A stretch of DNA of 41,475 bases from an uncultured Bacteroidia bacterium. Lineage in GTDB: Bacteria > Bacteroidota > Bacteroidia > Bacteroidales > UBA932. Below, one piece after another: positions 3,126 through 25,312 of the stretch. The position numbers and the translations under genes were made by a program. Where the stretch lies: contig CADBPR010000079.1 of NCBI GenBank assembly GCA_902796555.1, positions 1-41,475 on the forward strand, given 5' to 3'. Each line of letters starts with the position of its first letter. Position 1 is the first letter of the stretch. A model generated the notes under the pieces. That model was not told the origin of the DNA, ran no database searches, and saw only the letters and a program-made list of their open reading frames with translations.

Positions 3126-3147
3126 AGTGTACTTGAACGTCTTTTCC

Positions 3148-3180
3148 CAAAGATACTACTTTTTTACGTAATCGCGCAAA
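3148..3180 (-). promoter_or_regulatory. Promoter-like sequence for the DUF5107-TPR gene
   Basis: On the minus strand TTTG (3180-3177) is followed after 21 bases by TATCTTTG (3155-3148), matching TTTG...TAnnTTTG. It covers the last codons of the upstream gene and ends 22 bases before the ATG at 3125. An internal promoter here would uncouple this gene from the 21-kb transcript upstream. It rests on consensus match alone. Confidence 0.6.
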
Positions 3181-4280
3181 TACGTGGCATATTTGTCGAT
3201 GCAGTCGGGATAGCCGAACTTCTCCACGTATTTGGCGCTGATGTAGGACGTGTATGTGGTGATGTTGCGGATGCCGTAGGAGGCATAGGTATCCACATCG
3301 TCCTCGAACAGTTTCTGGTTCCAGGCCACTTCCTTCAGGTTGCTTTCGTCCCAGCTGCTGAAGAGCGAGCAGTCCAGCCAGTACTCCAGCACCTGGGCCG
3401 TTTCTTTCGGGAACACCTTGAGGTTGTCCCCCAGGGCCTTGAGATACTGCCCGTGGGTGCGTCCGTCCTTGCCGGAAGCGAAGGTGTCCGACATGGGGTG
3501 GTAGTGGTCCCGGTCAATCGGGGCGAACTCCAGGAAAATCCCTTCGGCCGGCTTTACCTTGGTCGGGGCCTCAACGGTGTTGTAATAGGCCAGATGGGCC
3601 AGCATGGCATCCGGATTGACTTCCCGCAGGCCCTCAATGATTACGTTTTCGAAGGTCAGCGCCTGGTCGGCAGGGCTGAGGTCCTTGCACAGGGGGCAAT
3701 GGCAGATATCGCCGGTATCGTCCATCCAGCAGTAGTATTTGTTGTTGGTGGAACGGTATCTTTCTGCGATAATCTTGGCCCTTTCGCGGATAATGTCCAG
3801 GGCTTCCGGGCTGGACGGGCAGCCGTTCACATCGTTGTTGCGGTTGCCGTTCTTGTCCATCCGGTAGTACTCGGGATGCTCCCCGAAGAGGTCACGCGGC
3901 AGCAGCCAGCCCAGCATATGCTCCTCGAACTCGATGTCGATGCCCTTCCTGGCACATTCGCCGCTGTAGGCCGTCCATGTGTCCGAGTCCATGGGGAAAT
4001 TGTAGATGCTGAAGGTATTGATGCCGGTGCGTTCGGCGATTTCAATATAATCCAGCTTGCTGCGCCGGGCCACATCCGTCCAGCAGCAGATGATGCCGAT
4101 CATCTTGAACCATTTCTCGCCGCTGGCGGGATCATAACTGTCGTCGGGATCCTCGCTCTCGTCCGGCACCGCCGGTTTGAACATGTCTTCCCATCCGCTC
4201 CTGGCGTCGGCATAATCCTCCTTCCCGGAACAGGAAAGGAGGACGGCCGCAGCCAGAACTGCCAAAAAGAATTGCTTCAT
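3156..4280 (-). CDS. DUF4838-like lipoprotein, type A, cassette 2
   Basis: 374 residues with a lipoprotein signal ending LLSC (Cys17), then an acidic low-complexity linker (about 22-55). The rest looks like a single TIM-barrel-type domain resembling DUF4838/glycosidase-like proteins. Conserved marks are NGCPSS (Cys154), WMDDTGD (185-191), the Cys motif CHCPLC (Cys193, 195, 198), MLAHLAY (226-232), FLEFAP (249-254) and EYWLD (299-303). The same four cysteines with the same 39-residue spacing occur in all four paralogues here, which suggests a structural metal site. Here the residue after EYWLD is Cys where two of the paralogues have Asp. Its start overlaps the previous gene's stop as TAATG at 4280. 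Closest relative in the window is the gene at 13356-14537. A glycan-active enzyme is the best guess, but catalytic residues cannot be assigned. Confidence 0.72.
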   Translation of the reverse strand: MKQFFLAVLAAAVLLSCSGKEDYADARSGWEDMFKPAVPDESEDPDDSYDPASGEKWFKMIGIICCWTDVARRSKLDYIEIAERTGINTFSIYNFPMDSDTWTAYSGECARKGIDIEFEEHMLGWLLPRDLFGEHPEYYRMDKNGNRNNDVNGCPSSPEALDIIRERAKIIAERYRSTNNKYYCWMDDTGDICHCPLCKDLSPADQALTFENVIIEGLREVNPDAMLAHLAYYNTVEAPTKVKPAEGIFLEFAPIDRDHYHPMSDTFASGKDGRTHGQYLKALGDNLKVFPKETAQVLEYWLDCSLFSSWDESNLKEVAWNQKLFEDDVDTYASYGIRNITTYTSYISAKYVEKFGYPDCIDKYATYLRDYVKK

Positions 4281-5329
4281 TATTTCTTGGGTCTATAGTC
4301 TCTCAGCGATTCTCCGTAGTACTTGACGAAGGAGATGTCGCCATATGTCTTTACATAGTAGTCGTCTATCCACGCGCCGTAGCTGGTGATATTGCGTATG
4401 CCCAGCGAGGCGTAGAGTTCCAGGTCGGCATCGAAAACCTCCTTGCTCCAGCGAACGGGCTGCTGCGGCCTGGTCCACATGCTGAACAGGGAGTCGTCCA
4501 GCCAGTATTCCAGCACCTGGGCGTTTTCCGCGCCGAACCAGGCCAGGTTGTCCTTCAGCATCTGGAGGTACTCGCCGTTGCACCACCGGGGACGGTCGGC
4601 CCAGCGCGCGGTGCTGTCGGTCAGCGGCGCTTCGTGGCAGCGGTCGATGGGCGCATATTCCAGGAAGATGCCTTCTGCGGGCTTGACGCAGGTCGGAGCG
4701 GGCGTCGTCTTGTCATAGGCCAGATGGGCCAGCATCGCCTCGGGATCGATTTCGCGCAGGCCCCGGATCATGGCATTCTCGAAGAGCAGACCCTGGTCGG
4801 CCAGGTTCAGGTGCTCGCAGTCCGGGCAGTGGCACTTGCCTCCGCCGTCATTCAGCCAGAAGTAGTACTTGTGGTTGCTGGGACGGTACTGCGCCTCCAT
4901 CTTCTTGACGTTCTCATAGACGACCTGCAGGGCGCCCTGGGAGGAGGGACAGCCGTTGTAGTCGGGGGTACGGTTGCCGTTTTCATCCATGCGGAAGTAT
5001 TCCGGATGCTCGGCGAACAGCTCGCGGGGCAGCATCCAGGTCATGCCGTGCTCTTCGTACTCGAAGTCGATGCCCATGTCGATAATCTTCTGCTTAAGCT
5101 CATAATATTCAGGGCTTTGATAATCCTTTCCGAAGATGCTGATGGTGTTCATCCCGGTCTCCTTCATCATGCCGAGCCAGTCGATGATGGAAGGATCTGC
5201 GGTCACGTCTGTCCAGGCGACGCAGATTCCGCGCAGCTGGAAGAAAGGTTCCTCGGATGTTTTGGATTTGCATCCGCCCGCCAAAAGGGCGATGGCCGCG
5301 ATGGCGGCAAACAGGTTAATTCGCTTCAT
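4280..5329 (-). CDS. DUF4838-like lipoprotein, type B, cassette 2
   Basis: 349 residues with lipobox LAGGC (Cys20) and almost no linker before the domain, which sets type B apart from type A. It carries the shared marks NGCPSS (Cys127), DGGGK, CHCPDC (Cys166, 168, 171), MLAHLAY, FLEYAP and EYWLDD (274-279). In the WxxDGG motif it has Asn-Asp (WLND) where the type A copies have Asp-Asp; the second Asp is the invariant one. The 14-base overlap with the upstream CBM9-type gene (5316-5329) and the TAATG junction with the downstream type A gene indicate one translationally coupled operon. Closest relative is 14537-15580. Likely exported to the periplasm or cell surface and glycan-active, by analogy with DUF4838 proteins, but no activity is proven by sequence. 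Confidence 0.72.
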   Translation of the reverse strand: MKRINLFAAIAAIALLAGGCKSKTSEEPFFQLRGICVAWTDVTADPSIIDWLGMMKETGMNTISIFGKDYQSPEYYELKQKIIDMGIDFEYEEHGMTWMLPRELFAEHPEYFRMDENGNRTPDYNGCPSSQGALQVVYENVKKMEAQYRPSNHKYYFWLNDGGGKCHCPDCEHLNLADQGLLFENAMIRGLREIDPEAMLAHLAYDKTTPAPTCVKPAEGIFLEYAPIDRCHEAPLTDSTARWADRPRWCNGEYLQMLKDNLAWFGAENAQVLEYWLDDSLFSMWTRPQQPVRWSKEVFDADLELYASLGIRNITSYGAWIDDYYVKTYGDISFVKYYGESLRDYRPKK

Positions 5330-6737
5330 ATGCAGGGAGATTGATAAGTGCCATATCCACCTTGTTGCTTCCCGAGCCTACCGGGGTAAGGCCATAGCAG
5401 GACCAGTGGTTGTTTCCGTTCATGAGTTTAATCCCGACGCGGGCCTGTTCTCCGACGATTTCGAAGTAGGTCCTGTCGAGCTGGACCTCGATCCGGCCGA
5501 TGCCGTCTTCACCCAGCGTGCCCGTACCGAAAATCTCATTGGACGTGTACTGGCCGGTTTGGTTTTCCAGTTTGCTGAAAATGCCGTCCTTGTCCTTCCC
5601 GCTATACTTGTAGGCGCCGGAAGTGAAGTCGATGTAATCGTCTTTGCCCAGGTGGACATTGGCCACCTCGATGTACCAGCTCAGGCCGGAATCCACATAC
5701 GGAGGCACCTGGTGGTCGTCATCAATCGACCCGAGCTTGCCGCCGGTGTCGTAGTTACCGTCGCTGTCCAGGAAAATATCGATAGGCATCGGGAACATGT
5801 CAAAATCCTCCGGTGAGGGCTCAACGATTTCGAAGTAAATATACAACTTTTTAGGCGTACCTGCAAGTTTAAGCGTCCGGATTCCCTGATAATCGGCGCC
5901 GCTGGGGGTAGCCCACTCCAGGGCGTCCTGCCAGTCGTCGAATTCTCCGTCTATCGTCACCAGGGCGCTGAACGGATAATTGAGGTTGATGGTGGCCTTG
6001 GGGCTGACGCCCGCACGGCCGTTCTCTACGGAAGCGATGCCGATGATTACGGGATAGGTGCCGGCTGCAAGACCGGCAGGGACGGTGACGGTGACCTCCG
6101 TATCAGCGCTGGTCTCTCCGGCCGGGATGGTCACTTCCTTGGCGAAGGAGACCTGGGCCTGGGAAGCGGGGTCCAGTTCGAGCCGCACGATGATATCCTT
6201 GTCGTGGGCCTTGGCGATGGCCGCCGTAAGGGTGGCCTTGCAGGTGGAGGCGAACTGGGAGTCGCTGTAGAGATTGACTTCCGGGAGGAAGACATAGCTG
6301 AGGTTGATATACGCAACGGCAGGTTCTCCCACCGTAGCGCCCTCGGCTGAATTGATCTTCAAGGCGAACTGATAATCGCCTTCCTTGAGACCCATGACGT
6401 CGGCCTCCAAATCGATCTGCAGGCTCTTTTCCCCGGCGGGGATGGTCACAGATTTCAAGTAGTCGGCAGGGACCCTGGATTTTCCGTCCTGGACGGTCGC
6501 ATTGCCGAGCTTGACACTGATATCAGAAGCGGAAGCTTCCGACAGGGTAAGGGTCGCCTTCGCCATGAAGGCTGCATCGAAGGAAGCGTCGGCCGTGAGG
6601 GTCACCGTAGGAACGTTGCCCGAGGGCTGTTCTTTCTGCCCTTCTTGACCTGGTTTCTCGGACGGTTCGCCGGTCTTTCCACAGGAGGCGAGAAGCGCCA
6701 GGACGGCGATACCCGACAGAATCAGATTCTTTTTCAT
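5316..6737 (-). CDS. Surface lipoprotein with two Ig-like repeats and a CBM9/DOMON-like domain, cassette 2
   Basis: 473 residues; lipobox LLASC (Cys19) and a Gly/Pro/Glu-rich linker to about 42. Two related beta-sandwich repeats of about 100 residues follow (about 43-148 and 150-256), each ending in a strand like AYINLSY or TINLNYPF and containing TIPAGE, a Calx-beta-like look. The C-terminal domain (about 258-473) opens with TIDGEFDDW and contains DIFLDSDGNYDTGG, typical of CBM9-like/DOMON carbohydrate-binding domains. It lies directly after SusD, the normal place of a surface glycan-binding protein, so binding of substrate at the cell surface is the likely role. The paralogue is at 15570-17048. 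Confidence 0.78.
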   Translation of the reverse strand: MKKNLILSGIAVLALLASCGKTGEPSEKPGQEGQKEQPSGNVPTVTLTADASFDAAFMAKATLTLSEASASDISVKLGNATVQDGKSRVPADYLKSVTIPAGEKSLQIDLEADVMGLKEGDYQFALKINSAEGATVGEPAVAYINLSYVFLPEVNLYSDSQFASTCKATLTAAIAKAHDKDIIVRLELDPASQAQVSFAKEVTIPAGETSADTEVTVTVPAGLAAGTYPVIIGIASVENGRAGVSPKATINLNYPFSALVTIDGEFDDWQDALEWATPSGADYQGIRTLKLAGTPKKLYIYFEIVEPSPEDFDMFPMPIDIFLDSDGNYDTGGKLGSIDDDHQVPPYVDSGLSWYIEVANVHLGKDDYIDFTSGAYKYSGKDKDGIFSKLENQTGQYTSNEIFGTGTLGEDGIGRIEVQLDRTYFEIVGEQARVGIKLMNGNNHWSCYGLTPVGSGSNKVDMALINLPAYEAN

Positions 6738-6757
6738 AACGGTTATCTGTTTTATTG

Positions 6758-8467
6758 TTATTGATTCCAGCCCGGATTCTGTTCCAGCAGGCGATTCTTG
6801 TCTATCTCACCCTGGGGAATCGGGAAGAGATAACTCTTCGCGGGGTCGAACACGCGGTTCTGGAACACAGGATAGGAAATATTGCCGTCGGCGTCGATAT
6901 GGACCTTATGGACCTTGCCCACATCCACCTTTTCGGCGATTTTCCAGCGCCTGACATCCCAGAAACGGTGGTTCTCGAAGCAAAGCTCGATCTTGCGCTC
7001 ATGGCGTATCCGCTCGCGCATCTGGTCCTGGTCCAGCCCGGCGGGCAGTTCCTTGACCTTCGCCCTGCGGCGGATGGTGTTGACCAGCTCATAGACACGC
7101 TCCGTGGGACCCTCCGTTTCGTTGAGCGCCTCAGCATAATTGAGATACAGTTCAGCCGTCCGCATGATGGCAAAGCGCCGGTAGGTCTCGCCCGCATCGG
7201 TGTAGAGGTTATGGTTGAGCTCCACATATTTCTTGTTGAAATAGTTGGTGCGCGTGACGGGGCCGTAATTGAGGTTGTCCTTGCCGTTTTCGGAAATGTC
7301 TATCGCCCTTCCCTGCAACTCCATCCCGTGGGTGAGGATGACGCAGTAGAACCGCTCTTCGCGGCCGTCCCAGGGCTTGAGGGGATTGTAGTCCGTCGCC
7401 AAGGGGTTGATAATCTGTTTGTTGTCGGCCGTATAACCCAGGACGGGAATTTCGCCGGAGGCCTGCATCTCGAAGCTGTCCACGAATTCCTGCAGCGGGC
7501 CGTCCACATTGAAGGCGCCGTATCCCAGCGGCAGGGCATAGACATCCCACCAGTGGCATTCCATGTGCTCGGAGTTCTTCACCCAGATCACCTCGGGCTC
7601 CTGGGCGGAAGTGACCTTGTTGAACAGGTCGCCATACGCCAGGGCCAGGGTATGGCCTTCTTCGAGGGCCTGCTTGTAGGCAATCCGGCAATAATCGGCA
7701 GCGTCTTCCCAGCGGTCCATGTCATTCTCCGGGTTCCAGAAAGGACTGGCCCAGTAGAGTTTGACCTGGGACTGGACGATGGTACAGACGAGCCGGGTAA
7801 AGCGGCCGAACTCGCCGTCGGTGAGCTTTTCCGGAAGATGCCGCTTGGCTTCTTCCATGTCGTCAAGTACCTGATTCAGCGTTTCTTCGGCCGTAGCCCT
7901 GCGGATGCCCTGGGTGGACTCCACATTGCCCGGGTCGAGCACCGACTTGATGATGGGAACGCCGCCCCACTGCTTGAAGAGCAGCCAGTAATAGTAGCCT
8001 CTCAAGGCATACGCCTCGCCTAGCATCCGTTCCCTTCTGTGCGTGGGGGCACCGTTGGAAATCTCTTCGGGGACCAGGTCGAAGTTCTCGATGAATTTGT
8101 TGCAGCGGCGGATGCATCCGTAATAGTCGCGCCAATTGCGCTCCATGGGCATCCGGTTGGGGCTCCAGCTGCCGATGTTGATGTCAAAGGGACAGGCCTG
8201 GTAGTCATACCCCTGCTGGAACCCGCCTTCATCGGTGCAGTCGCCCAGCTTGTATCGTCCAGAAAGGTCTTCCGTCGGGTACTGGTAGTCGGGCAGGTAG
8301 ATGTAGGCGTTGTTGAGGTACTTCTCTGCGGTCTCGATGTTCGAGAAGAGCTCCTCCTTGGTGAGGTTGTCGCCGGGGGCCCTGTCCAGATAGTCCTTGC
8401 AGGAGACCAGCCCCGCCGCAAGGGTTATGATAGCAATTGCTGTGTATATTCTTTTCATGGTCGTCAT
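6758..8467 (-). CDS. SusD/RagB-family substrate-binding lipoprotein, cassette 2
   Basis: 569 residues from the chosen ATG at 8467, which lies 4 bases after the SusC stop; an ATG at 8458 (MKRIY) is an equally good start. The longer reading from 8491 overlaps SusC and adds eight residues before the signal peptide, so it was rejected. Lipobox LVSC is followed by KDYLDRAPGDN, the typical N-terminus of SusD proteins. The C-terminal region has the family's ERIRHERKIELCFENHRF and WDVRRWK, and ends in LEQNPGW. SusD forms the lid over the paired SusC barrel and captures ligand at the outer membrane. By eye about three quarters of the aligned N-terminal part is identical to the copy at 17076-18785. Confidence 0.95.
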   Translation of the reverse strand: MTTMKRIYTAIAIITLAAGLVSCKDYLDRAPGDNLTKEELFSNIETAEKYLNNAYIYLPDYQYPTEDLSGRYKLGDCTDEGGFQQGYDYQACPFDINIGSWSPNRMPMERNWRDYYGCIRRCNKFIENFDLVPEEISNGAPTHRRERMLGEAYALRGYYYWLLFKQWGGVPIIKSVLDPGNVESTQGIRRATAEETLNQVLDDMEEAKRHLPEKLTDGEFGRFTRLVCTIVQSQVKLYWASPFWNPENDMDRWEDAADYCRIAYKQALEEGHTLALAYGDLFNKVTSAQEPEVIWVKNSEHMECHWWDVYALPLGYGAFNVDGPLQEFVDSFEMQASGEIPVLGYTADNKQIINPLATDYNPLKPWDGREERFYCVILTHGMELQGRAIDISENGKDNLNYGPVTRTNYFNKKYVELNHNLYTDAGETYRRFAIMRTAELYLNYAEALNETEGPTERVYELVNTIRRRAKVKELPAGLDQDQMRERIRHERKIELCFENHRFWDVRRWKIAEKVDVGKVHKVHIDADGNISYPVFQNRVFDPAKSYLFPIPQGEIDKNRLLEQNPGWNQ

Positions 8468-8471
8468 CTGT

Positions 8472-11400
8472 TTAAAGGTCAACGCGTACACCCATGTTGA
8501 TTACCCGCTGGAGCGGATACGGGAGGGTTCCCGTTCCCGCGGCCTCGGGGTCTCTGTCCTTCAGCCACATGGTATCCCAAATCGCGACGTTCTGGGCATT
8601 GACGTAGATACGCAGGGCATCGATGTGAATCTTGCGCAGCCACTTGGCGGGCACCCGGTAACCGAGTTCCACGTTGCGGAGCTTCAGATAATCCGTCTTC
8701 ATCAGGTTGAAGTCGTTGAGCATGTTGTTGTTCGACGAATTGTGGGCCACGGGCAGGATGGCGCCCGTGTTGGAAGGCGTCCATCGTTTGAGATTGATGA
8801 TGCTGGACTCATACACCCACAGACGGGCGGTGCTGCCAAGCGCTCCGCTGAGCATCATGCTGAAGTCGAAATTCTTCCAGTTGAATCCCAGGGAAAGACC
8901 GCCGGTGAAGACAGGCACGGAGAAGCACTTGATGGGGATGCGGTCGTTGGAATCGATGTTGCCGTCGCCGTTGGCGTCCCAGTATTTGATATCGCCGGGG
9001 ATGAGGGCGGTACCCAGGTTCTGGGTAGGGCTGTTGTCGATTTCTTCCTGGCTCTGGAAGAGGCCCAGGGCGTGGTATCCCAGTTCATAGCCAATCTCAT
9101 AGCCGCGAAGGTCCTGATAATCGAACTTCGGGGTGGGCTGGTCATTCTCCAGGACCTTGTTCTTGGCCCAGGTGCCCTGGAGGTTGGCGAACATGGAGAA
9201 ATCCCGGCCGAGCTGCTTCTGGAAGCGGAGCTCGAACTCGAAGCCATGGTTGAACACCTTTCCGGAGTTACGCGGGGCGATGTTTTCGATACCCACATAC
9301 AGGGGCACGCTGGCCGCTTCGGTGAGGATGTTGTTGCGCATCTCCCGGAAATAGTCCACGGTGAAGTTGAGCATGTTGCCCTTGAACAGGGACAGGTCGA
9401 AACCGATATTCATCTTGTGCGCCACTTCCCAGGTCACGAATTCATTGCCGACGCGGGTTTCATTGTATCCGCCCGCGGAATTGGTGCCGCTTGTCGTCTT
9501 GCCGAAATAATAGCCGGCACTGTACATGTATCCCATGCCTCCGCCGGGGCCGTAGTCGGAGATATACAGGAACCGGGCACCGCCAATCTGGTCGTTGCCG
9601 ACCGTTCCGTAGGAACCGCGCAGCTTCAGGATTTTCACCCAGTCGGGCATATGCAGCCAGGGTTCGTCGCTGATGACCCATCCCGCCGAGAAGGAGGGGA
9701 AGAGACCGTAGCGCCTTCCGGGAGGGAAGTTCTCGGAACCGTTGTAACCGAGATTGAACTCGGCGAAATAGCGTTTGGCGTAATTGTAGGTGGCCCGGGC
9801 GCTGATGCCTTGATAGGCATACATGTACTCCGAGTTCTGGATGTTCTTCAGGGTGCGGTTGCCGAGCGCCTGGGCATAGACCTGATGCTCGCCGAAAGTC
9901 CTGTCGTAGTTGAGCCGGACATCAAAGTAGGAATACCGCTCGACATAGGTTCCCGTGCTGGCCGCCAGACGGCCCTCGGTGGTATAGTCCTGATAGACGG
10001 GCTCCCCTTTCTCGTCGAGGCCGCGGTACCATTTCTGCTCGAATTCCTGGGACCAGTAGCGGTTGAGGTTCGCCGTATTCTCAAAGCTGTAGAAGCCCTG
10101 GATATACAGGCCCTTGGTGATGAAGTCGAGGTCGTATTTGGCCGAGACCGTACCGTAGAGGACATTGGAGCCGTTGTTATAGTAACCGCTGTGCGTCAGG
10201 ACGCCGTAGGGGTTGCCCGGGTGGGACGGGTTCACCAGACCGGAGCCGGCCGCCAGGGAGCCGTCCGGGTTGAAGACGGCCTGCGAGGCCGGAAGGCGGT
10301 TGGTGATCTGCCCGAAGATATAGGAGAAGCTCTGGCTGGGGCCTACCCGGGTTTCCAGGCGGGCCGCCAGGTCGATCCGGACGTTCATCCGCTTGGTAAT
10401 CTGGACGTCCAGGTTGGAGCGGAAGTTGACGCGGTCGTATTTGGCCTTCACCCCATAGTTGGATTCAAAGACGTCTTCATGATTGAGCAGCGTGCCCTGG
10501 CGGACGTAACTTCCCGATATGAAGTAATTGACCTTGAACCGTTTACCGGTAGAGCCGGACACGTTTACATTGTATTGCTGCTGCCAGGAATGCTTCTTCA
10601 GCACCACGTCGAACCAGTTCGTGCTCGGATACATATACGGGTCGGAGCCGGTGCGCAGGGCCTCGATTACTTCGTCGCTGTAGGTCAGCGGCTGGCCGTT
10701 GTTGAAGTCCAGCGCCCGGTTATAGAGGGCCTGGTCGTAGGAAGACATGATCTGCGGAAGCCGGATTGGCTGCTGAAGCGCCTGCTGGATGTTCACGGAG
10801 ATGCGGGGCTGCTCGTCTCCGCCACCGCGGCGGGTGGACACGACCACGACGCCGTTGGCCCCCTGGATACCGTACAGGGAGGATGACGCGGCATCTTTCA
10901 GGATTGTAATGGACTCGACCTCATTGGGGTCTATCATGTCCAGGTCGGCCTTGTTTCGGGGCAGACCGTCGATAACGACCAGCGGGGCGCTGCTGCCATA
11001 GGTGCCCAGGCCCCGGATGTACAAGGTCGCGGCGTCGGCGCCCGGCTCGCCCGAATACTGCACCGTCATCAGGCCGGGCAGCTTGCCGGCGAGGGCGTTG
11101 GAGATATTCGCTACAGGGCTCTGTACCAGTTCCTTCGTCTGGATGGTGGAGATGGCGCCGGTGATGGCCCGCTTGGTCTGGCGGTTGTTCATACCCACGA
11201 CGACCACTTCGTCCAGCACATTGACGTCGTCTTCGAGGACGATATCGATGTGCTGCCTGCCTTTCTGCACCTCGAAGGAATAGGGCTGGTATCCCATCGC
11301 GGAGACGGACACCGTGCTGTAGTCTTCTGTGAAGGACAGGGAATACGCACCGCCCACGTCGGTAATGGAGGAAATCTGCGTCCCCCGAATCCACACGACC

Positions 11401-11795
11401 GCGCCGATGACGGGCTCGCCGCCTTTATCCGTCACCGTGCCGCTGACCTCTGTCTTTTGGGGCTTGGGCGCCGGCTGCGGGGACGTTTTCTGGGGTGCTT
11501 TGCGGGTAACGGCCACAATCTTGCCCTTCATCTCATAGCTGAAAGGCGGTTTGATTACCGTGGACAACACCTGTTGGAGCGGGGTGTCGTTGAACGTGGC
11601 GCTTACGGCGGGAGCGCTGCGGAGGTCGCCGGAATCGAACAGGAAAGAATATCCGGTCTGACTCTCGATTTCCTTGAGCACATCGACGAGCGAAGCGTTC
11701 CTGAACGTCTGGGTTACCGTCTGGGCACCCAGGCTCAGGCCCGCAAGGAGCAAGACTGCACTCAGGAAGACACGTAAGGTTCTTAGTCGGGTCAT
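8472..11795 (-). CDS. SusC/RagA-family TonB-dependent receptor with STN domain, cassette 2
   Basis: 1107 residues. A signal peptide ends near GLSLGAQ; an STN domain (about 25-95) contains FLFDSGDLR; a carboxypeptidase-regulatory-like domain (about 113-205) starts VSGTVTDKGGEPVIGAVVW; a TonB box-like DEVVVVGMNN follows; then the plug (about 215-325, with VIDGLPRNKADLDMIDPNEV) and a 22-strand-type barrel. It imports ligand with SusD using TonB energy. The STN domain is the part that contacts FecR anti-sigma factors, so this receptor should also signal to the sigma/FecR pair encoded just upstream (fecR ends 16 bases before). It is highly similar to 18786-22115. The ligand is unknown. Confidence 0.96.
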   Translation of the reverse strand: MTRLRTLRVFLSAVLLLAGLSLGAQTVTQTFRNASLVDVLKEIESQTGYSFLFDSGDLRSAPAVSATFNDTPLQQVLSTVIKPPFSYEMKGKIVAVTRKAPQKTSPQPAPKPQKTEVSGTVTDKGGEPVIGAVVWIRGTQISSITDVGGAYSLSFTEDYSTVSVSAMGYQPYSFEVQKGRQHIDIVLEDDVNVLDEVVVVGMNNRQTKRAITGAISTIQTKELVQSPVANISNALAGKLPGLMTVQYSGEPGADAATLYIRGLGTYGSSAPLVVIDGLPRNKADLDMIDPNEVESITILKDAASSSLYGIQGANGVVVVSTRRGGGDEQPRISVNIQQALQQPIRLPQIMSSYDQALYNRALDFNNGQPLTYSDEVIEALRTGSDPYMYPSTNWFDVVLKKHSWQQQYNVNVSGSTGKRFKVNYFISGSYVRQGTLLNHEDVFESNYGVKAKYDRVNFRSNLDVQITKRMNVRIDLAARLETRVGPSQSFSYIFGQITNRLPASQAVFNPDGSLAAGSGLVNPSHPGNPYGVLTHSGYYNNGSNVLYGTVSAKYDLDFITKGLYIQGFYSFENTANLNRYWSQEFEQKWYRGLDEKGEPVYQDYTTEGRLAASTGTYVERYSYFDVRLNYDRTFGEHQVYAQALGNRTLKNIQNSEYMYAYQGISARATYNYAKRYFAEFNLGYNGSENFPPGRRYGLFPSFSAGWVISDEPWLHMPDWVKILKLRGSYGTVGNDQIGGARFLYISDYGPGGGMGYMYSAGYYFGKTTSGTNSAGGYNETRVGNEFVTWEVAHKMNIGFDLSLFKGNMLNFTVDYFREMRNNILTEAASVPLYVGIENIAPRNSGKVFNHGFEFELRFQKQLGRDFSMFANLQGTWAKNKVLENDQPTPKFDYQDLRGYEIGYELGYHALGLFQSQEEIDNSPTQNLGTALIPGDIKYWDANGDGNIDSNDRIPIKCFSVPVFTGGLSLGFNWKNFDFSMMLSGALGSTARLWVYESSIINLKRWTPSNTGAILPVAHNSSNNNMLNDFNLMKTDYLKLRNVELGYRVPAKWLRKIHIDALRIYVNAQNVAIWDTMWLKDRDPEAAGTGTLPYPLQRVINMGVRVDL

Positions 11796-11811
11796 ACTTG
11801 GTTATGTTTAG

Positions 11812-12780
11812 TTAATATTCTGTGACACAATAGGTTCCATCCGGGCTTACCGTCCACTTCACCGGACGGATCAGGGTCAGGCCGTCCAGGATGCCGCTCA
11901 GGCTTTCCTCCAGGTTGAGGATGACGCCGAAGGTGGCGCCCGGATGCTTGCCGGGGGTATAATCTATCTGGACGCCATACAGGGAAGACAGCCGGCGGAG
12001 GAGCCTGTCCAGGGTGATCCTGTCGTAGTCCAGCTTGTTGTCCATCCAGCTGATGTCTTTGGAAGCGTTCCCTTTGATTTTCTCCATTTCTCCCTGGGCC
12101 GTATCCATCCGGAGGATTTCCCCGGGAATCATTTCCACCCGGGTACCCGGCGTGGTGAATTCCACGCTGCCCTCCAGCAGGGCCACTTCGCAAAGATTCT
12201 CGCCCCGGTAGGCGGAGACATTGAATTTGGTGCCCAGGACGTTGACGTGGCTCCCGTCCAGGTTGACGGTGAATTTCCGGCCGGGGAGCTTCTTGACGTC
12301 GAAATAGGCTTCCCCTTCCAGGCTGACAATCCTGTCGCCGGAGAGGAAATCCTTGTTGTAGGATATTCTGGAGAAGGCGTTGAGCCATACCTGGGTGCTG
12401 TCCGGGAGGACGACCTTGGTCTTTTCCCGGCAGCCGGTCTCCACGATGCACAGCATTTCCTCCACCTTTGGGGAAGGTTTGCGTCCGGGGACGAGCAGGA
12501 CCGTGGAGATGACCACAATCGCCGCGCATGCGGCCACCGCCGCCCATCGCCAGGCACGGGCGACTTTGCGGGAACGGATATCCGCTTTGATCCGGGCAAA
12601 AGAATTGACTTGGGAGAACGACGGTACTTCACGGGCATACCATTCGTTCTCCCAGGTTTCATAGAGGGCCCGGTGGGAAGGGCTCTCGGACAGGAATTCC
12701 TGTATTTCTGCCGCCCGGCGCTCGTCGGTATCTCCGGCGAAGAATTCCAGGCATATTTTCTTGATATGGTCCATCATCAT
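11812..12780 (-). CDS. FecR-family anti-sigma factor, cassette 2
   Basis: 322 residues. The N-terminal cytoplasmic part (1-75) would bind the sigma factor; a single membrane helix lies at about 78-97 (WAAVAACAAIVVISTVLLV). The periplasmic FecR domain (about 115-220) includes VLPDSTQVWLNAFSRISY, EGEAYFDV and VLGTKFNVSAY, and a DUF4974-type C-terminal domain lies at about 245-320. The start has three adjacent ATG codons (12780, 12777, 12774), so the exact start is uncertain by two residues. It transduces occupancy of the STN-bearing SusC to the sigma factor. Visible identity to the cassette 1 FecR is much lower than that between the SusC copies. Confidence 0.93.
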   Translation of the reverse strand: MMMDHIKKICLEFFAGDTDERRAAEIQEFLSESPSHRALYETWENEWYAREVPSFSQVNSFARIKADIRSRKVARAWRWAAVAACAAIVVISTVLLVPGRKPSPKVEEMLCIVETGCREKTKVVLPDSTQVWLNAFSRISYNKDFLSGDRIVSLEGEAYFDVKKLPGRKFTVNLDGSHVNVLGTKFNVSAYRGENLCEVALLEGSVEFTTPGTRVEMIPGEILRMDTAQGEMEKIKGNASKDISWMDNKLDYDRITLDRLLRRLSSLYGVQIDYTPGKHPGATFGVILNLEESLSGILDGLTLIRPVKWTVSPDGTYCVTEY

Positions 12781-12822
12781 ACGCTTTGAACTGACAGTAT
12801 AACGGATGAACCGGTATTTTCC

Positions 12823-13356
12823 CTACCCTTTTTCCAATAGTTTTTCCCGGAAAACGCGCAGCGCGGTGGTGATGTTTTTTTCCACGGCTTTTTCGGAGAT
12901 GCCCAGCCGCGCGGCGATTTCGCTGTTCTTCAGCCCCTCGACGCGGCTCATGTCGAAAATCTGCCGGCACCGCGGCGTGAGCGAATCCGCCACGGCTTTG
13001 ATCCGGCGGTCCATTTCGTCGAGCAGCAGGGAGTCGTCGGCGGCGCCGCAGGACAGGGTCTGGTTGAACAGGATTTCCTCATTCCTGCCCATGGAGACGC
13101 CGGGGACGGTCAGCGAGCGTTTCAGGGCGAGGTGACGCAGTGAATCGATGCAGCGGTTGCGGACCATGGAAAAGAGCACCGGCACCCACGATTCGGACGT
13201 CTTGCCCTGGTATTTTTCCCAGAAGCGGACGAACACGTCATGGATGGCGTCTTCGGCGCTGCGGCCGTCACCCAGAAATTTACGGGCATAGGCTGAAAGC
13301 CGCTGCCCGTAACGATAATAGAGTGATTCAAACGTATTTCTGTCCAGCCGGACCAT
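12823..13356 (-). CDS. ECF RNA polymerase sigma-70 factor, cassette 2
   Basis: 177 residues. Region 2 has AIHDVFVRFWEKY and VRNRCIDSLRHLAL, and region 4 has LTPRCRQIFDMSRVEGLKNS followed by the helix-turn-helix EIAARLGISEKAVEKNI. This is the FecI-like sigma class of Bacteroidota, held by the adjacent FecR and released when the receptor binds ligand. Its ATG at 13356 shares one base with the TAA stop of the last cassette 1 gene (TAATG), so there is no room for a promoter between the cassettes except inside that gene. It therefore appears translationally coupled to cassette 1. Confidence 0.94.
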   Translation of the reverse strand: MVRLDRNTFESLYYRYGQRLSAYARKFLGDGRSAEDAIHDVFVRFWEKYQGKTSESWVPVLFSMVRNRCIDSLRHLALKRSLTVPGVSMGRNEEILFNQTLSCGAADDSLLLDEMDRRIKAVADSLTPRCRQIFDMSRVEGLKNSEIAARLGISEKAVEKNITTALRVFREKLLEKG

Positions 13357-14537
13357 TACTCCTTGACAAAGTCGTACAACCCGTCGGCATAGTCAATCAG
13401 GAACTGCGGGAATCCGAACTTCTTGTTGTAGTCCGGACCGACATAGGCGCAGTAGCAGGTAATATGCCGGATGCCGTATTTGGCGTAGGTCTTCAGGTCA
13501 TCCAGGAATATTTTCTGGTTCCAGGGAACCGCCTTCAGGTTGGAGGGGTTCCATCCGCTGAACAGGGAGTCGTCCATCCAGTATTCCAGCACCTGGGCGG
13601 TTTCCACAGGGAATACTTTCAGGTTTTCCTGCAAGGCCCTGAGATATTTGGCGTGCGTCCAGCCGCTGTTGCCTTCCGCCCACGTTTCGGACAGGGCGTT
13701 CGCCCAAGTCCGGTGGAACGGAGCGAACTCCAGGAAGATACCCTCCGCCGGCTTCACGTTTTTCGGGGCGTTCGTGGTATTGTTGTAGGCCAGATGCGCC
13801 AGCATGGCGTCGGGGTCCAGCTCCTTGAGCGCCTCGATAACCTTGTTTTCGAACATCAGGGCCTGGTCGGAAGCCGAAAGGCCCTTACATTTGTCGCAAT
13901 AGCATACGTCTCCGCCGTCGTCCAGCCAGAAATAGAACCGGTGGTTCGTAGGCATATAGCTGGCGCCCAGGCGTTTGGCGTTATTGTAAACTTCCTTCAG
14001 CGCCCCCTCGGAGGAAGGACAGCCGTTGGCGTCCTTGACCCGCTTGCCGCTCTTGTCCATCCGGAAGTACTCCGGATGCGTGTCATACAGGCTGCGGGGC
14101 AGCAGGAAAGACATCATATGCTCCTGAAACTCGAATCGCACACCGATCAGCGAGGCCTCTGTCATATAGTCTTTCCAGGCTTTGGAGTTCCTGTCGGCAT
14201 TGTACACGCTGAAAGTGTTGAGGTGGTGATCCTTAGCTATTTTGAGATAATCAATGGCATATTCATTACCGGGGGCATAGATGTCGCTCCAGCCGCATAC
14301 GATGCCGCGGGTCTTGAACCAGCGGTCTTCGTCAGGATCTTTGGAATTGTCATCTGCAGACGGGTCTGAAGAGCTGTCGTCCGACGGGTCTTCAGATGCG
14401 GGTTCGGCGGAAGGTTCGTCGAACATCTTTTCCCAGGCATCCAGTGCGGATGTCTCATTTCTTTTCTCACAGGAAACCGCCCCGGTGCCGCCAAGCAGCA
14501 GCACCAGGAGGGTCACCGATATGAATCTTTTGCTCAT
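13356..14537 (-). CDS. DUF4838-like lipoprotein, type A, cassette 1
   Basis: 393 residues; lipobox GAVSC (Cys23), then a long acidic Ser/Pro/Asp linker (about 40-72) that should hold the domain away from the membrane. Domain marks: NGCPSS (Cys173), WLDDGGD (204-210), CYCDKC (Cys212, 214, 217), MLAHLAY, FLEFAP and EYWMDDSLF. This copy has Tyr in place of His in the CxC motif. The spacing Cys173 to Cys212 is 39 residues, as in the other three paralogues. Both ends are tightly coupled: its start overlaps the type B stop at 14537 and its stop overlaps the cassette 2 sigma start at 13356. Putative glycan-active lipoprotein; no catalytic assignment is possible by eye. Confidence 0.72.
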   Translation of the reverse strand: MSKRFISVTLLVLLLGGTGAVSCEKRNETSALDAWEKMFDEPSAEPASEDPSDDSSSDPSADDNSKDPDEDRWFKTRGIVCGWSDIYAPGNEYAIDYLKIAKDHHLNTFSVYNADRNSKAWKDYMTEASLIGVRFEFQEHMMSFLLPRSLYDTHPEYFRMDKSGKRVKDANGCPSSEGALKEVYNNAKRLGASYMPTNHRFYFWLDDGGDVCYCDKCKGLSASDQALMFENKVIEALKELDPDAMLAHLAYNNTTNAPKNVKPAEGIFLEFAPFHRTWANALSETWAEGNSGWTHAKYLRALQENLKVFPVETAQVLEYWMDDSLFSGWNPSNLKAVPWNQKIFLDDLKTYAKYGIRHITCYCAYVGPDYNKKFGFPQFLIDYADGLYDFVKE

Positions 14538-15580
14538 TATTCGTTTTTGAAATCTCTCAGGCCGCGGCCGTAGTCATAGACCCACTCGGGGAAGCCGAAG
14601 GTCTTGGTGTAGTAGTCGTCTATCCACACGCCGTAGCCGGTAATGTTCCTGATGCCCAGAGAGGCATACGTCTTGAGGTCGTCCTCGAAAACGTCCTTGT
14701 GGAAAGTAAGCTCCTTCTGGGGCTTTTTCCAGTCGCTCACCAGAGAAACGTCCATCCAGTATTCCAGCACCTGGGAATCCTCGGTGCCGAACCATTCCAA
14801 ATTGGCCTTCAGCATATCCAGATAGTCGCCGTGCGTCCATCCGAAGGGCAGTCCGGGGCGTATCGCATCCCGCTTGGAAAGCGGTTCGGACCAGCTGCGG
14901 TAGAAGGGGGCGAACTCCAGGAAGATGCCTTCCTCGGGCTTGACTTTCGTCGGGGCCGGCGTCGTGGTGTGATAGGCCAGGTGCGCGAGTTTCGCCTCGG
15001 GGTCGAAAGCGCGAAGGGCTTTGATGATATGGTTCTCGAAAATCAGACCCTGGTCGGAAGCGGAAAGGTCCTTGCACGCGGGGCAATGGCAGATGTCGCC
15101 GCCGTCGAAAAGCCAGGTGTAATAGCGATGGTTGGAAGGCATGTGCGTCTTGGCGAAGCCTTCCACGTTGCTCATCATCACAGCAAGGCCTTCCTGGCAG
15201 GAAGGACATCCGTTGCCGTCGGCCTTCCGTTCGCCGTTCTCATCCATACGGAAGTATTCCGGATGGGTAGCGAACAGCTCGCGGGGGAGCAGGAAGGACA
15301 TGGCGTGCTCCTCATATTCAAAGTCAAAGCCCGCGTCAATCCATTTCTGCTTCATCTGCGCATATTCTTCGTCATCGTAGCGGTGACCGCAGATGCTGAT
15401 GGTGTTCATGCCTGTCTCCTTCATAATCTTCATCCAGTCAATGGTTTCAGGATGAATCACGTCGTCCCAGGCCAGCACTACACCTCTCATCTGGAAGAAC
15501 GGAGTCTCCTCCTTGGGAGCGCAGCCGCAAAGCAGCGCTCCCAGGAGCAGACAACAGGTCGCGAATCGTTTAATTTGCAT
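14537..15580 (-). CDS. DUF4838-like lipoprotein, type B, cassette 1
   Basis: 347 residues from ATG 15580 (MQIKRF). The open frame extends to 15679, but that longer start lies inside the upstream gene and puts 33 non-signal residues before a good lipoprotein signal ending LLCGC (Cys20), so 15580 is preferred. It overlaps the upstream CBM9-type gene by 11 bases, mirroring cassette 2. Marks: NGCPSC (Cys125), WLFDGGD (156-162), CHCPAC (Cys164, 166, 169), FLEFAP and EYWMD (273-277). After EYWMD it has Val-Ser-Leu-Val where two other copies have Asp-Ser-Leu-Phe, so the region around the second acidic site varies among paralogues. Type B has no linker. Function is inferred only from family resemblance and locus context. 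Confidence 0.72.
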   Translation of the reverse strand: MQIKRFATCCLLLGALLCGCAPKEETPFFQMRGVVLAWDDVIHPETIDWMKIMKETGMNTISICGHRYDDEEYAQMKQKWIDAGFDFEYEEHAMSFLLPRELFATHPEYFRMDENGERKADGNGCPSCQEGLAVMMSNVEGFAKTHMPSNHRYYTWLFDGGDICHCPACKDLSASDQGLIFENHIIKALRAFDPEAKLAHLAYHTTTPAPTKVKPEEGIFLEFAPFYRSWSEPLSKRDAIRPGLPFGWTHGDYLDMLKANLEWFGTEDSQVLEYWMDVSLVSDWKKPQKELTFHKDVFEDDLKTYASLGIRNITGYGVWIDDYYTKTFGFPEWVYDYGRGLRDFKNE

Positions 15581-17048
15581 ACGGAGGGAGATAAATGTAC
15601 AGAAGCTCTTCCGCGGCTGTGTAAGTAGGAGCATTGGGCTGTTCTGCCTGAGGAGCCAGACCGAGCGCTGTCCAGCCATTGAAGCCGTCCATGAGTTTCA
15701 CACCAAAGGCAGCCTTGGTACCCTTGATGTTAAACGCCTCTCTGCTGAAGACAATTTCAACCTTGCCCACAGTGCCTTCAATGACACCCTGCGCAAATAT
15801 TTTTTCAGGATGAGCTTTGAAAGCATCATTGAGGTTTTCAAAGCCCGACCAGAACGAAGCACCGTCGGCGCCATTGTACCTCAGATACCACTGCAATTCC
15901 GTGAGATCGGCAAATCCCGGGACCACCGACTCATCTTCAAGCGTCACGTTCTTGTTCAGAAGTCCTTCCAGATAATACTCGATACCCGGGTTCACCCATT
16001 GCTGGATATTGACATACGGATCTCCATTATTATTGTCAATACTGGCGATGATACATCCCGTGGCATTGTTACCGTCTGCATTGATGTAGATGTCGAAAGG
16101 CGTCAGGTCACCTTCAACGTTATTGACTTCGTAAGTCTCAAGATACATATAGACACACTTCGGGTCGGCAGCAAGTTTCATGCACTTGAGCTGCGTGAAG
16201 ATAGCCTTTTCCGGTAGCGTCCAGGTCACGATGCTGGGATCATTCCAGTCGTCGAAAGCACCGTCAATGGTAATCGGGACCTGGAAAGGATACGAGAGGT
16301 TGATGGTAGCGCTGGACGCGGAACCCACCGTGGCGTTATTGGCTTCGGCAATCTTGATGATAGCCGGATAGACACCGGCTTCAAGGCCGTCAGGAATCGT
16401 CACCGTCACGACAACATCCTTTTCGGTTTCGCCGGCAGGAATCGTGACAGTAGCCTCGTAGCTGACAGTCGCCGTGGACGCGGCATCGGTTTCGAGCTTA
16501 ATCGTTACATCAGCCGTGGTGGCCTTGGCCAGGACGAGCTTGAGCACCGCGGTCTTGTCGCTCTTGAACTGACCGTCAGCATAGAGGTTGACTTCCGGCT
16601 TGAAGGCGAAGGACAGGTTGATGTACACCGTGGCGTTGTCGGCCACTTTGGCGCCTTCGGCGGAATCAATCTTGATGGCCGCCTGGAAGTCACCGCTTTC
16701 CAGACCGAGCGCGTCGGCGGTCACTTCTACGGTAGCGGAAGTTTCGCCGGCCTTGATGGTGACATTCTTGGAGAAGTCGGCAGGGACTTCCTTCTTGCCG
16801 GACTGGATGTCAGCCTTGGCGAGTTTCACCTTCACGTCCGTGCTGGCAGCAGCGGAGAGGGTGAGCGTTACATTGGCCTTGAGGGCGTCTGAGAAGGAAG
16901 CGTCCGCAGAAATGGAGACGGTAGGAGTCTCCCCCTGGGGACCTACGGGGTCCTTGCTGGTGTCGGGGGTAACGGGGGTTTTCGAGCAGGATGCGAAGAT
17001 ACCTGCAGCGAGGAGCATAACGCTCGCAATTAAAATTGATCTTTTCAT
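15570..17048 (-). CDS. Surface lipoprotein with two Ig-like repeats and a CBM9/DOMON-like domain, cassette 1
   Basis: 492 residues; lipobox IFASC (Cys21), linker to about 43, then two Calx-beta-like repeats (about 44-150 and 151-258, each with TI.AGET and a closing YINLSF or TINLSYPF strand). A CBM9/DOMON-like domain follows, starting TIDGAFDDW and containing DIYINADGNN. The paralogue is at 5316-6737. The binding domains differ noticeably in length and sequence between the two copies (for example, around the DGN loop and the C-terminus), so the two may bind related but not identical ligands. Expected role: surface glycan-binding protein beside the SusCD complex. Confidence 0.78.
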   Translation of the reverse strand: MKRSILIASVMLLAAGIFASCSKTPVTPDTSKDPVGPQGETPTVSISADASFSDALKANVTLTLSAAASTDVKVKLAKADIQSGKKEVPADFSKNVTIKAGETSATVEVTADALGLESGDFQAAIKIDSAEGAKVADNATVYINLSFAFKPEVNLYADGQFKSDKTAVLKLVLAKATTADVTIKLETDAASTATVSYEATVTIPAGETEKDVVVTVTIPDGLEAGVYPAIIKIAEANNATVGSASSATINLSYPFQVPITIDGAFDDWNDPSIVTWTLPEKAIFTQLKCMKLAADPKCVYMYLETYEVNNVEGDLTPFDIYINADGNNATGCIIASIDNNNGDPYVNIQQWVNPGIEYYLEGLLNKNVTLEDESVVPGFADLTELQWYLRYNGADGASFWSGFENLNDAFKAHPEKIFAQGVIEGTVGKVEIVFSREAFNIKGTKAAFGVKLMDGFNGWTALGLAPQAEQPNAPTYTAAEELLYIYLPPYAN

Positions 17049-17075: not shown

Positions 17076-18785
17076 TTATTCCCATCCGGGATTTTGGGTA
17101 AGCAGCCTGTTCTTGTCGATCTCCCGCTGGGGGATAGGGAAGAGATAGTGCTTGCTGGGGTCGAACACCCGGGTCTGGAAGACAGGGTAGGTGATGGTTC
17201 CGTCCGCTGCCACCCGGACCATGTGGACCTTCTTGTTGTCCACTTTCTCGGCAATCTTCCAGCGACGGACATCCCAGAAGCGGTGGTTCTCGAAGCACAA
17301 CTCGATGCGCCGCTCATGACGGATCCTTTCCCGCATCTCTTCCTTGCTCAAACCGGTCGGGAGTTCGATGACATTGGCGCGGCGGCGGATTACGTTGACC
17401 AGCTCCCGGACACGCGGGGTGGCGCCTTCCACTTCGTTCAGCGCTTCGGCGTAGTTCAGGTAGAGCTCGGCCGTACGCATGATGGCGAAGCGGCGATAGG
17501 TCCATTGGACATTGGTCACCAGGTTGTGATTCTGGTCCAAGTACTTGTTGTTGAAGTAGTTGGTCCTGATGATGGAGCCGATGTTGATATTGTCCGTACC
17601 GGTCTCGGAGATGTCAATCGCGCGGCCCTGCAGGGTAGCTCCATTGTACAGGATGCAGGAGTAGAACCTGTCTTCCCTGCCTTCCCAGGGCTTGAGCGGA
17701 TTGTAGTCCGTGGCCTTCGGGTTGATAATCTGGGTGTTGTCCTCGTTGTATCCGAGCACGGGAATTTCGCCGGTGGCCTTCATTTCGAAGTCGTCCACCA
17801 TCTCCTGGATAGGGCCGTCCACGTTGAAGGCGCCATATCCCAGCGGCATGGAGTAGAAATCCCACCAGTAGCACTCGTAGTGTTCCGAGTTCTTGGTCCA
17901 GATGACCTCGTTTTCAATGCCTTCCTTGTTGAAAAGGTCGCTGTATTTGAGGGCGAGGGTGTGTCCGGCTTCCTTCTCTGCCATCTGGAGCGCTTCGCGG
18001 CATTCGTCCGCGGCTGCCTCCCAGCGGTCCGGGTCGTTGTCCGGGTTCCAATAAGGACTGGCCCAATAGAGTTTCACCTGGGACTTGACAATCTTGGCCA
18101 CGACTTTGGTGAAGCGGCCGAAGTTGGCGGCATCGTGCTTGAGCGGCAGGATTTCCTCCGCCTTGTCCATGTCGTCGAGTACCTGCTTGAGGGTCTCTTC
18201 AGCCGTTGCCCGCTTGATGCCCTTGATGGATTCTACCTGGCCGGGATCGAGCACTTCGTTGATGATCGGCACGCCGCCCCACTGCTTGAAGAGCAGCCAG
18301 TAGAAATAGCCCCGCAGCCCGTAAGCTTCGCCCAGGAGGCGTTTCTTACGGTCGGAACCGCCGCCGGCGCTCATATCCTCGGGGATGAGGTCGTAGTCCT
18401 TGATGAACATGTTGCATCTGCGGATGCACTCATAGTAGTCCTTCCAGTTGCGTTCCATCGGCATCCGGTTGGGGTTCCAGTTGCCGAGGTTGATGTCGAA
18501 AGGACTGGCAGGATAGCCGGAGCCCTGCTGGAAACCGCTCTCGTCGGTGGCATCACCGAGCTTGTAACGGCCAGTGAGGTCTTCGGTATTGTATTGATAG
18601 TCGGGCAGATAGATATAAGCATTGTCCAGATACCGCTCGGCCGTCTCTATCTTGGAAAACATTTCCTCTTCGGTGAGGTTGTCTCCCGGTGCACGGTCGA
18701 GGAAATCTGTGCAGGAAACAGTCACTGCAAATGCGCCCAGAAGCGCTGCCGTATATTTCAGAAAACTCTTCATAGTCGTAAACAT
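17076..18785 (-). CDS. SusD/RagB-family substrate-binding lipoprotein, cassette 1
   Basis: 569 residues, the same length as the cassette 2 copy. The lipobox VTVSC is followed by TDFLDRAPGDN. Family motifs near the C-terminus include ERIRHERRIELCFENHRF, and the chain ends in LTQNPGW. The ATG at 18785 directly abuts the SusC stop (TAA then ATG), and an alternative ATG at 18773 (MKSFLK) would give a shorter, equally valid signal peptide. Partner of the SusC at 18786. The ligand-facing middle region is strongly conserved with cassette 2 (for example, HTLALAYGDLFNK and HTLALKYSDLFNK), so the two complexes probably take closely related ligands. Confidence 0.95.
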   Translation of the reverse strand: MFTTMKSFLKYTAALLGAFAVTVSCTDFLDRAPGDNLTEEEMFSKIETAERYLDNAYIYLPDYQYNTEDLTGRYKLGDATDESGFQQGSGYPASPFDINLGNWNPNRMPMERNWKDYYECIRRCNMFIKDYDLIPEDMSAGGGSDRKKRLLGEAYGLRGYFYWLLFKQWGGVPIINEVLDPGQVESIKGIKRATAEETLKQVLDDMDKAEEILPLKHDAANFGRFTKVVAKIVKSQVKLYWASPYWNPDNDPDRWEAAADECREALQMAEKEAGHTLALKYSDLFNKEGIENEVIWTKNSEHYECYWWDFYSMPLGYGAFNVDGPIQEMVDDFEMKATGEIPVLGYNEDNTQIINPKATDYNPLKPWEGREDRFYSCILYNGATLQGRAIDISETGTDNINIGSIIRTNYFNNKYLDQNHNLVTNVQWTYRRFAIMRTAELYLNYAEALNEVEGATPRVRELVNVIRRRANVIELPTGLSKEEMRERIRHERRIELCFENHRFWDVRRWKIAEKVDNKKVHMVRVAADGTITYPVFQTRVFDPSKHYLFPIPQREIDKNRLLTQNPGWE

Positions 18786-25302: not shown

Positions 25303-25312
25303 AATGTGTTGA

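Follow-up and report, generated by a model that had tools for sequence, protein, structure and literature searches.

Proteins with the Pfam domain DUF4838 (PF16126) form a known but barely studied family, and the closest described systems with which they can be compared are families of glycoside hydrolases (GH), namely GH163, GH42, GH20 and GH84. A DUF4838 protein of Polaribacter is annotated, in the accessible part of PMC9870897, as a GH163 endo-beta-N-acetylglucosaminidase, and this annotation is the single link between DUF4838 and GH163 on which we draw; the GH163 of B. thetaiotaomicron is described, again in the accessible part of the source, as cleaving GlcNAc-beta-1,2-Man in complex N-glycans (PMC10154615). 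For the GH42 enzyme Gal42, modelled on PDB entry 3tts, the available sections of PMC8573354 give Glu148 as the acid/base and Cys113, Cys153, Cys155 and Cys158 as zinc ligands (one place prints Cys11). They state that the zinc stabilises the domain and, citing Maksimainen 2012, that it has no part in catalysis, while the abstract also claims a zinc role in catalytic function. Here we compare with these systems four DUF4838 lipoproteins (P0001 to P0004) encoded on a stretch of 41,475 nucleotides, called the window below, which comprises positions 1 to 41,475 of contig CADBPR010000079.1 (assembly GCA_902796555.1) from an uncultured Bacteroidia bacterium of the Bacteroidales lineage UBA932.

The four proteins are probably glycosidases of the GH163-related DUF4838 family, anchored as lipoproteins at the cell surface and carrying a structural metal site. 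Their genes form pairs of a type A and a type B partner in two tandem copies of a SusC/SusD polysaccharide-utilisation cassette. The presence of the four-cysteine metal site can be held with high confidence, that the proteins are enzymes is very probable, and that their invariant aspartate is the acid/base is likely; an N-acetylhexosamine-containing substrate is no more than a tentative suggestion. In the proposed mechanism the four cysteines, one after strand 3 and three after strand 4 of the barrel, would jointly hold one Zn2+ ion, which would fix the loops of strands 3 and 4 in place without being involved in catalysis. The general acid/base would be the invariant Asp that closely follows strand 4 (Asp161 in P0002), and Glu274/Asp278 at the end of strand 7 would supply the second carboxylate, the latter assignment being less certain, while SusC/SusD would import the product. 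Where strand 4 ends, type B has two adjacent Asp, the first of which is another residue in type A.

The four lipoproteins and their cysteine and aspartate pattern

All four genes lie on the minus strand. The type A gene P0002 (4280-5329, 349 aa) and the type B gene P0001 (3156-4280, 374 aa) are the first and second genes of the pair in cassette 2, and P0004 (type A; 14537-15580, 347 aa, with an alternative longer in-frame start at 15679) and P0003 (type B; 13356-14537, 393 aa) are their counterparts in cassette 1. The P0002 gene overlaps that of P0001 by 1 base and the gene upstream by 14 bases, and lipoboxes are present in all four products. Each protein exceeds the PF16126 cut-off of 26.6 bits, P0001 with 65.6 bits (E 5.7e-18), P0002 with 65.6, P0003 with 57.8 and P0004 with 57.0. 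This is the sole Pfam match of the four up to E 1, so that none matches the GH42 model PF02449 at that threshold, and an NCBIfam scan of the same proteins returned no match. The matches do not span the whole PF16126 model, the best stretches falling within positions 17-214 of 325, and Pfam sets no such requirement.

A first-pass annotation of the window had drawn attention to four cysteines shared by these proteins, and the pattern C-x38-CxCxxC was indeed found in all four at the residues named, the first Cys within N-G-C-P-S and the other three in C-[HY]-C-x-x-C. Converted from residue positions into window coordinates (minus strand), P0001 has its first cysteine, Cys154, at 3819-3821, Asp188 at 3717-3719 and Cys193/195/198 at 3687-3704; P0002 has Cys127 at 4949-4951, Asp161 at 4847-4849 and Cys166/168/171 at 4817-4834; P0003 has Cys173 at 14019-14021, Asp207 at 13917-13919 and Cys212/214/217 at 13887-13904; and P0004 has Cys125 at 15206-15208, Asp159 at 15104-15106 and Cys164/166/169 at 15074-15091. 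The Asp thus always stands five residues ahead of CxCxxC, and the distance from the first Cys to CxCxxC is, as claimed, exactly 39 residues in every copy. This equal spacing is not independent evidence, because the four proteins share 46-59% pairwise identity and owe it to common descent, and the idea that it is remarkable in itself was rejected, the distance in the wider family being 38-41 (37 in one weak match, L108). The motif W-[LM]-x-D-[GT]-G around the Asp likewise occurs in all four proteins; of its positions only W and D are invariant in the 96-row alignment described next.

The pattern is not specific to the window and is common to the whole DUF4838 family. Further loci were retrieved with two peptide patterns, [ET]HPEY[FY]RM and VKP[AE]EGIF, and since neither contains a cysteine, the cysteines were not selected for. 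Relatives were encoded by 87 of the 126 stretches retrieved, the best 80 of which, in 77 loci, were retained. In these loci C-x37..39-CxCxxC occurs in 93 of 98 DUF4838 open reading frames (ORFs), against 1 of 2099 other ORFs of at least 120 aa. An alignment of the short members (92 relatives plus the window proteins, 31-98% identical to P0002, after exclusion of exact duplicates and of rows matching fewer than 230 model positions) has 96 rows. All of them have the Asp and every Cys but the third, which is present in 95. A broader set was obtained from 187 matches, which yielded 183 domains and, once duplicates were removed, 158 rows; these represent 156 distinct genes, two rows being second gene copies. 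With the window included, the strand-4 Asp is found there in 158/158 rows (156/156 genes) and all four Cys in 151/158 rows (149/156 genes); a His (155 rows, 3 gaps) and a Tyr (157 rows) are nearly invariant. In one DUF4838 protein, L180 (genome G401, ORF 652-3603), none of the four Cys is left although the Asp is still there, and six further rows have lost one or two Cys, again with the Asp kept. That the Cys4 site is dispensable and the Asp is not points to a structural metal and a catalytic Asp.

The long members of the family share the pattern. C-x37..38-CxCxxC was found in 22 of 26 long ORFs (L082-L106, L110), in 14 of them after SVSQND, and the hhalign comparison of short and long DUF4838 profiles gave 98.8% (E 1e-16) with Cys and Asp in register. 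In a set of 20 long members the open frames measure 589-889 aa, all but one of them 718-889 aa; such proteins begin with a hexosaminidase/glucuronidase-type stretch and carry an F5/8 domain at the C-terminus. In contrast, the window proteins, at 347-393 aa, consist of one barrel and have neither the N-terminal hexosaminidase-type nor the C-terminal F5/8-type domain; this multi-domain build is absent from them, and its belonging to GH163 is an assumption. The short clade further differs at two strands: strand 7 mostly ends in Glu, and at strand 4 the SVSQND of long members is replaced by W-[LM]-x-D.

The suggestion that the four proteins are an unrecognised enzyme family can accordingly be kept only in part. 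All four pass the DUF4838 cut-off, the Cys4 pattern runs through the family, and one member is annotated as GH163 in the accessible text of PMC9870897; as the Cys4 pattern marks a family that Pfam already lists and for which one GH163 annotation exists, the family is not unrecognised. What stands is that the short clade covers only part of the Pfam model and that, in the tools and literature used, no characterised member of this single-barrel clade was found. In the open-access collection searched, from which most subscription papers are missing, a single paper names DUF4838, in a table that gives no mechanism, and the accessible texts yielded no statement of a metal site for DUF4838 or GH163. 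The short clade and its A/B pairing, not found described in that literature, look like a new variant.

The genome that contains the window (2.13 Mb, 83% complete) has these four DUF4838 matches and no other, and matches were found in 29 of 395 genomes of its phylum, itself included, as well as in 8 of the 299 genomes of another phylum, that to which a Paenibacillus genome (counted among the 299) belongs. The Lentisphaeria genome G399 (2.7 Mb), the source of locus L076, has 22 DUF4838 matches, a few of which are two pieces of one frame.

Predicted fold and comparison with GH42, GH20 and GH84

An AlphaFold2 model of residues 24-349 of P0002, computed with 96 sequences, reached a predicted local distance difference test score (pLDDT) of 95.8 and a predicted template modelling score (pTM) of 0.92. 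It is a (beta/alpha)8 barrel with helices between the strands in barrel order which, together with the lipobox, agrees with the earlier description of a TIM-barrel-like secreted protein. In model numbering, to which 23 is added to obtain that of P0002, the strands are 9-15, 39-43, 65-71 (with a one-residue break), 131-135, 176-182, 198-203, 248-251 and 290-294. Cys104, the first cysteine, lies between strand 3 and the helix 108-124, and Cys143, Cys145 and Cys148 follow strand 4, in loops that neighbour that of Cys104 at the barrel mouth; from these loop positions and the GH42 zinc site the four cysteines would lie close together. Asp138 (Asp161) stands three residues past strand 4, Glu251 (Glu274) is the final residue of strand 7 and Asp255 (Asp278) follows four residues further on.

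For the metal site the comparison was with GH42. Six GH42 sequences, picked for their Cys cluster and taken from two Clostridia-type genomes and a Paenibacillus, were aligned with the short clade by hhalign, which gave 96.3% (E 1.5e-9) with the Cys in register with the GH42 Cys4-Zn site. With the four Cys columns masked in both profiles the value was still 86.2% (E 4.9e-6), against 0.1-0.3% for five column shuffles and 0.1% for the reversed profile. The first Cys precedes CxCxxC by 39-41 residues here and by 40-44 in the six GH42 sequences. Glu148 and Cys153 of Gal42, as numbered in the accessible part of PMC8573354, are five residues apart, as are Asp161 and Cys166 of P0002. Common to 3tts/Gal42 and the short clade are a barrel fold match and a carboxylate that precedes CxCxxC in, or adjacent to, the acid/base position. 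The claim of a metal-type Cys4 site beside an acid at the likely acid/base position is thereby supported, as far as a predicted fold and the GH42 register can do so. The short clade differs from GH42 in being a single domain of about 320 residues and in having Asp (158/158 rows) where GH42 has its Glu acid/base after an Asn at the end of strand 4. The Cys cluster is moreover not general in GH42 according to the accessible sections of PMC8573354, and among five Bacteroidota proteins matching PF02449 three strong matches were without CxCxxC and two weaker ones had one.

Judged by sequence, Asp161 is likely, not proven, to be equivalent to the GH42 acid/base Glu. If the Trp of strand 4 is taken as the starting point, the acidic residues of the short clade and of GH42 are out of step by two positions, and hhalign shows a shift of two as well, explained by a shorter strand-4 end in the short clade.

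Several observations weigh against a GH42-like, zinc-bearing glycosidase with these catalytic residues. The hhalign alignment places the Asp two residues ahead of the GH42 Glu, so that the match of Asp161 to this Glu is read from the Cys side. The top fold match is GH20 and not GH42: the Foldseek list for the PDB is headed by GH20 lacto-N-biosidases (E 4.7e-10), with the GH42 beta-galactosidase 3tts in ninth place (E 9.3e-7), and both overlays are loose, with a template modelling (TM) score of about 0.5 on GH20 and of only 0.31 on 3tts (root-mean-square deviation 16.4). A single-sequence search of the PDB gave 0 matches up to E 10, and the best match in a profile search with the 96 sequences, again 3tts, was not significant (E 0.53), although its alignment nonetheless places all four Cys in register. 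The long DUF4838 members match GH42 at 78.6% in hhalign and GH20 at 99.5% over several domains, which speaks against a simple GH42 origin. Nor are the strand-7 acids universal, as the Asp after W/Y is found in 136/158 rows (some long members have Asn or His there) and Glu at position 274 of P0002 in 91/96 rows of the short family, in which Asp278 is present in 96/96. Finally, the site could hold a metal other than Zn.

On sequence grounds GH20 and GH84 were both rejected as nearest barrel to the short clade, with hhalign values of 40.4% and 0.7%, respectively, against 96.3% for GH42. The GH20 lacto-N-biosidase/beta-hexosaminidase structures 4h04 and 5bxp are the best Foldseek matches of the short-clade barrel, and the HxGGDE catalytic motif of GH20 is absent from P0001-P0004. 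In a viral fold library the best match was a phage beta-N-acetylhexosaminidase (E 9.8e-7). A long member modelled alone (pLDDT 89.2) matched GH20 BT0459, GH84 (second), GH115 and GH67 in Foldseek, and its conserved Asp261 and Asp364 lie near the ends of strands 4 and 7 of the model; the long DUF4838 members gave 48.7% in hhalign against GH84, over the N-terminal part. Both GH84 comparisons, of the short and of the long members, used a single GH84 sequence. In the GH84 O-GlcNAcases an Asp-Asp pair forms the catalytic dyad, which the Asp-Asp of type B resembles, an analogy only, since the GH84 barrel does not align with the short clade by sequence.

Type A and type B partners and competing readings

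In a tree of the 158 rows, P0002 and P0004 fall into a clade of 27 rows (26 distinct genes), called type A, and P0001 and P0003 into a clade of 17, called type B, each with a support of 98 in the Shimodaira-Hasegawa-like approximate likelihood ratio test (SH-aLRT); the tree was built quickly and its branches are long, and its split into short and long members is supported at only 24. Because the two type A and the two type B proteins of the window form separate clades, the A/B pair is older than the duplication of the cassette. The types differ at the residue directly ahead of the candidate catalytic Asp, which is Asp in 17/17 type B and in 0/26 type A genes; type A has Phe (8), Tyr (8), Asn (7), Trp (2) or His (1) there, and the remaining 113 distinct genes mostly have Asp (59) or Asn (39). 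This difference suggests that the partners probably cut different linkages, or that only B uses an N-acetyl-assisted mechanism; by analogy with the GH84 dyad, B may use such assistance and A not. The two ancient partner types within a conserved SusC-SusD-SGBP-A-B cassette, SGBP standing for surface glycan-binding protein, look like a new element. Speculatively, and with rather little confidence, the short clade could constitute a separate GH family in which the acid/base is an Asp, held next to a structural Zn(Cys)4 derived from a GH42-like barrel. It would then act as an obligate two-enzyme pair, in which B uses an Asp-Asp dyad with N-acetyl assistance and A, its assisting residue swapped, mostly for an aromatic one, attacks the neighbouring linkage of the same glycan.

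It is also conceivable, if somewhat unlikely, that all four proteins do the same job and that the A/B difference is drift after duplication, which concerns the pairing only and is compatible with glycosidases holding a structural metal. The two types are still 46-50% identical and only few columns are fixed differently between them; both are nevertheless kept side by side in several genomes, the pair predates the cassette duplication, and the residue beside the candidate catalytic Asp is Asp in every type B gene and in no type A gene.

That the proteins are non-catalytic glycan-binding barrels (pseudo-glycosidases) which pass glycan to SusC/SusD, like other surface lipoproteins of polysaccharide utilisation loci (PULs), is improbable. 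Their genes do follow that of a BT_3987-type lipoprotein in the operon, and the acidic neighbour of the key Asp is gone in type A, yet this Asp is invariant in 158/158 rows, the His (155) and the Tyr (157) are nearly so, Pfam finds no other glycosidase in the cassette, and a long DUF4838 member is annotated as a GH163 enzyme in the accessible text of PMC9870897.

We consider it more doubtful still that the four Cys form two disulfide bonds outside the cell and no metal site. Cysteines of exported lipoproteins can be oxidised, and the joint loss of all four in L180 fits disulfides and metal alike; against this, CxCxxC and the remote Cys are in register with a Zn(Cys)4 site known from the available part of PMC8573354, and many relatives come from rumen, caecum or rectum samples, which are anoxic. 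A metal that is itself catalytic, or an iron-sulfur cluster, in something other than a classical glycosidase is very improbable, for although no more than ten residues separate the invariant Asp from three of the four ligands, 7/158 rows have lost one to four Cys and keep the Asp, as expected of a structural site, and the GH42 zinc is reported as non-catalytic (PMC8573354, accessible part, citing Maksimainen 2012).

The duplicated SusC/SusD cassette and its neighbours

The four genes belong to one minus-strand gene run (216-24314) with gaps of -14 to +74 bases, which in gene order encodes a small protein, a sigma factor, a FecR protein, SusC, SusD, a BT_3987-type lipoprotein and the A and B proteins, then repeats from the sigma factor and ends with a DUF5107-TPR protein. 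Cassette 1 comprises an extracytoplasmic function (ECF) sigma factor (23166-23690, PF08281), a FecR anti-sigma factor (22129-23091, PF04773), SusC (18786-22115, PF07715), SusD (17076-18785, PF07980) and the BT_3987-type lipoprotein (15570-17048), whose 25.7 bits for PF08522 are just below the cut-off of 25.9. The corresponding genes of cassette 2 encode an ECF sigma factor (12823-13356, PF08281/PF04542), a FecR anti-sigma factor (11812-12780, PF04773), SusC (8472-11795, PF07715 and PF13715), SusD (6758-8455, PF07980) and a lipoprotein with a BT_3987-like N-terminus (5316-6737, PF08522 30.8 bits), which is likely an SGBP. Between the copies, identity is 70% for SusC, 73% for SusD, 41% for the BT_3987-type lipoprotein, 56% for P0002/P0004 and 53% for P0001/P0003. 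The order SusC-SusD-SGBP-DUF4838 recurs in 15 of the 77 loci, on 13 contigs; the other 62 include contig ends, Clostridia without SusC/SusD and Bacteroidales with other neighbours.

The DUF5107-TPR protein that closes the run (216-3125, minus strand; PF17128 325 bits) has an N-terminal part similar to PDB entry 5cd6 (E 5.1e-25), and such a protein follows the DUF4838 genes, directly or past a small protein, in 13 of the 77 loci (L001-L010, L013, L015, L016). At the other end of the run, a 206-aa secreted protein (23694-24314, minus strand) has no Pfam match, and its sequence looks, in our own reading, like a beta domain of the type of carbohydrate-binding module family 9 (CBM9). Because its homologues sit directly after the DUF4838 pair, and before the DUF5107-TPR gene, in L004, L005 and L007-L010, it may be a displaced member of the cassette.

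The remark that no ordinary glycoside hydrolase lies nearby holds for the Pfam matches of the 25 window proteins scanned, three ADP-ribosylglycohydrolase-family proteins excepted. The neighbourhoods of 44 hand-picked loci among the 77 named no substrate. In 21 non-cassette loci, 60 of 61 selected neighbours were scanned, and the 25 commonest of 78 families included GH92 (3), GH20 (2) and GH95, GH123 and GH65N (1 each); for 50 neighbours in 23 mostly Clostridia loci, the 25 commonest of 71 families included GH32N (2), GH43 (2) and PL8 (1).

A second PUL in the window (24433-38384) encodes a DUF4595 protein, an esterase, the three ADP-ribosylglycohydrolase-family proteins (PF03747) in succession, a third SusD/SusC pair, a ureide/sugar permease and a PfkB kinase. 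It recalls the ribose/nucleoside-scavenging loci of Bacteroides, for which a literature search gave nothing direct, and PDB searches with an SGBP and an ADP-ribosylglycohydrolase-type protein gave no match. Part of rpoC lies at the contig end (39631-41466).

The striking expansion in G399 indicates that the DUF4838 family can reach a large copy number in one genome, and L180 would be a natural metal-free control. A natural pair whose partners differ at the dyad, along with the predicted acid/base and the predicted structural metal site, makes the proposed mechanism directly testable by a few point mutants and points to a so far uncharacterised cassette with which Bacteroidales of gut and rumen would take up a glycan.

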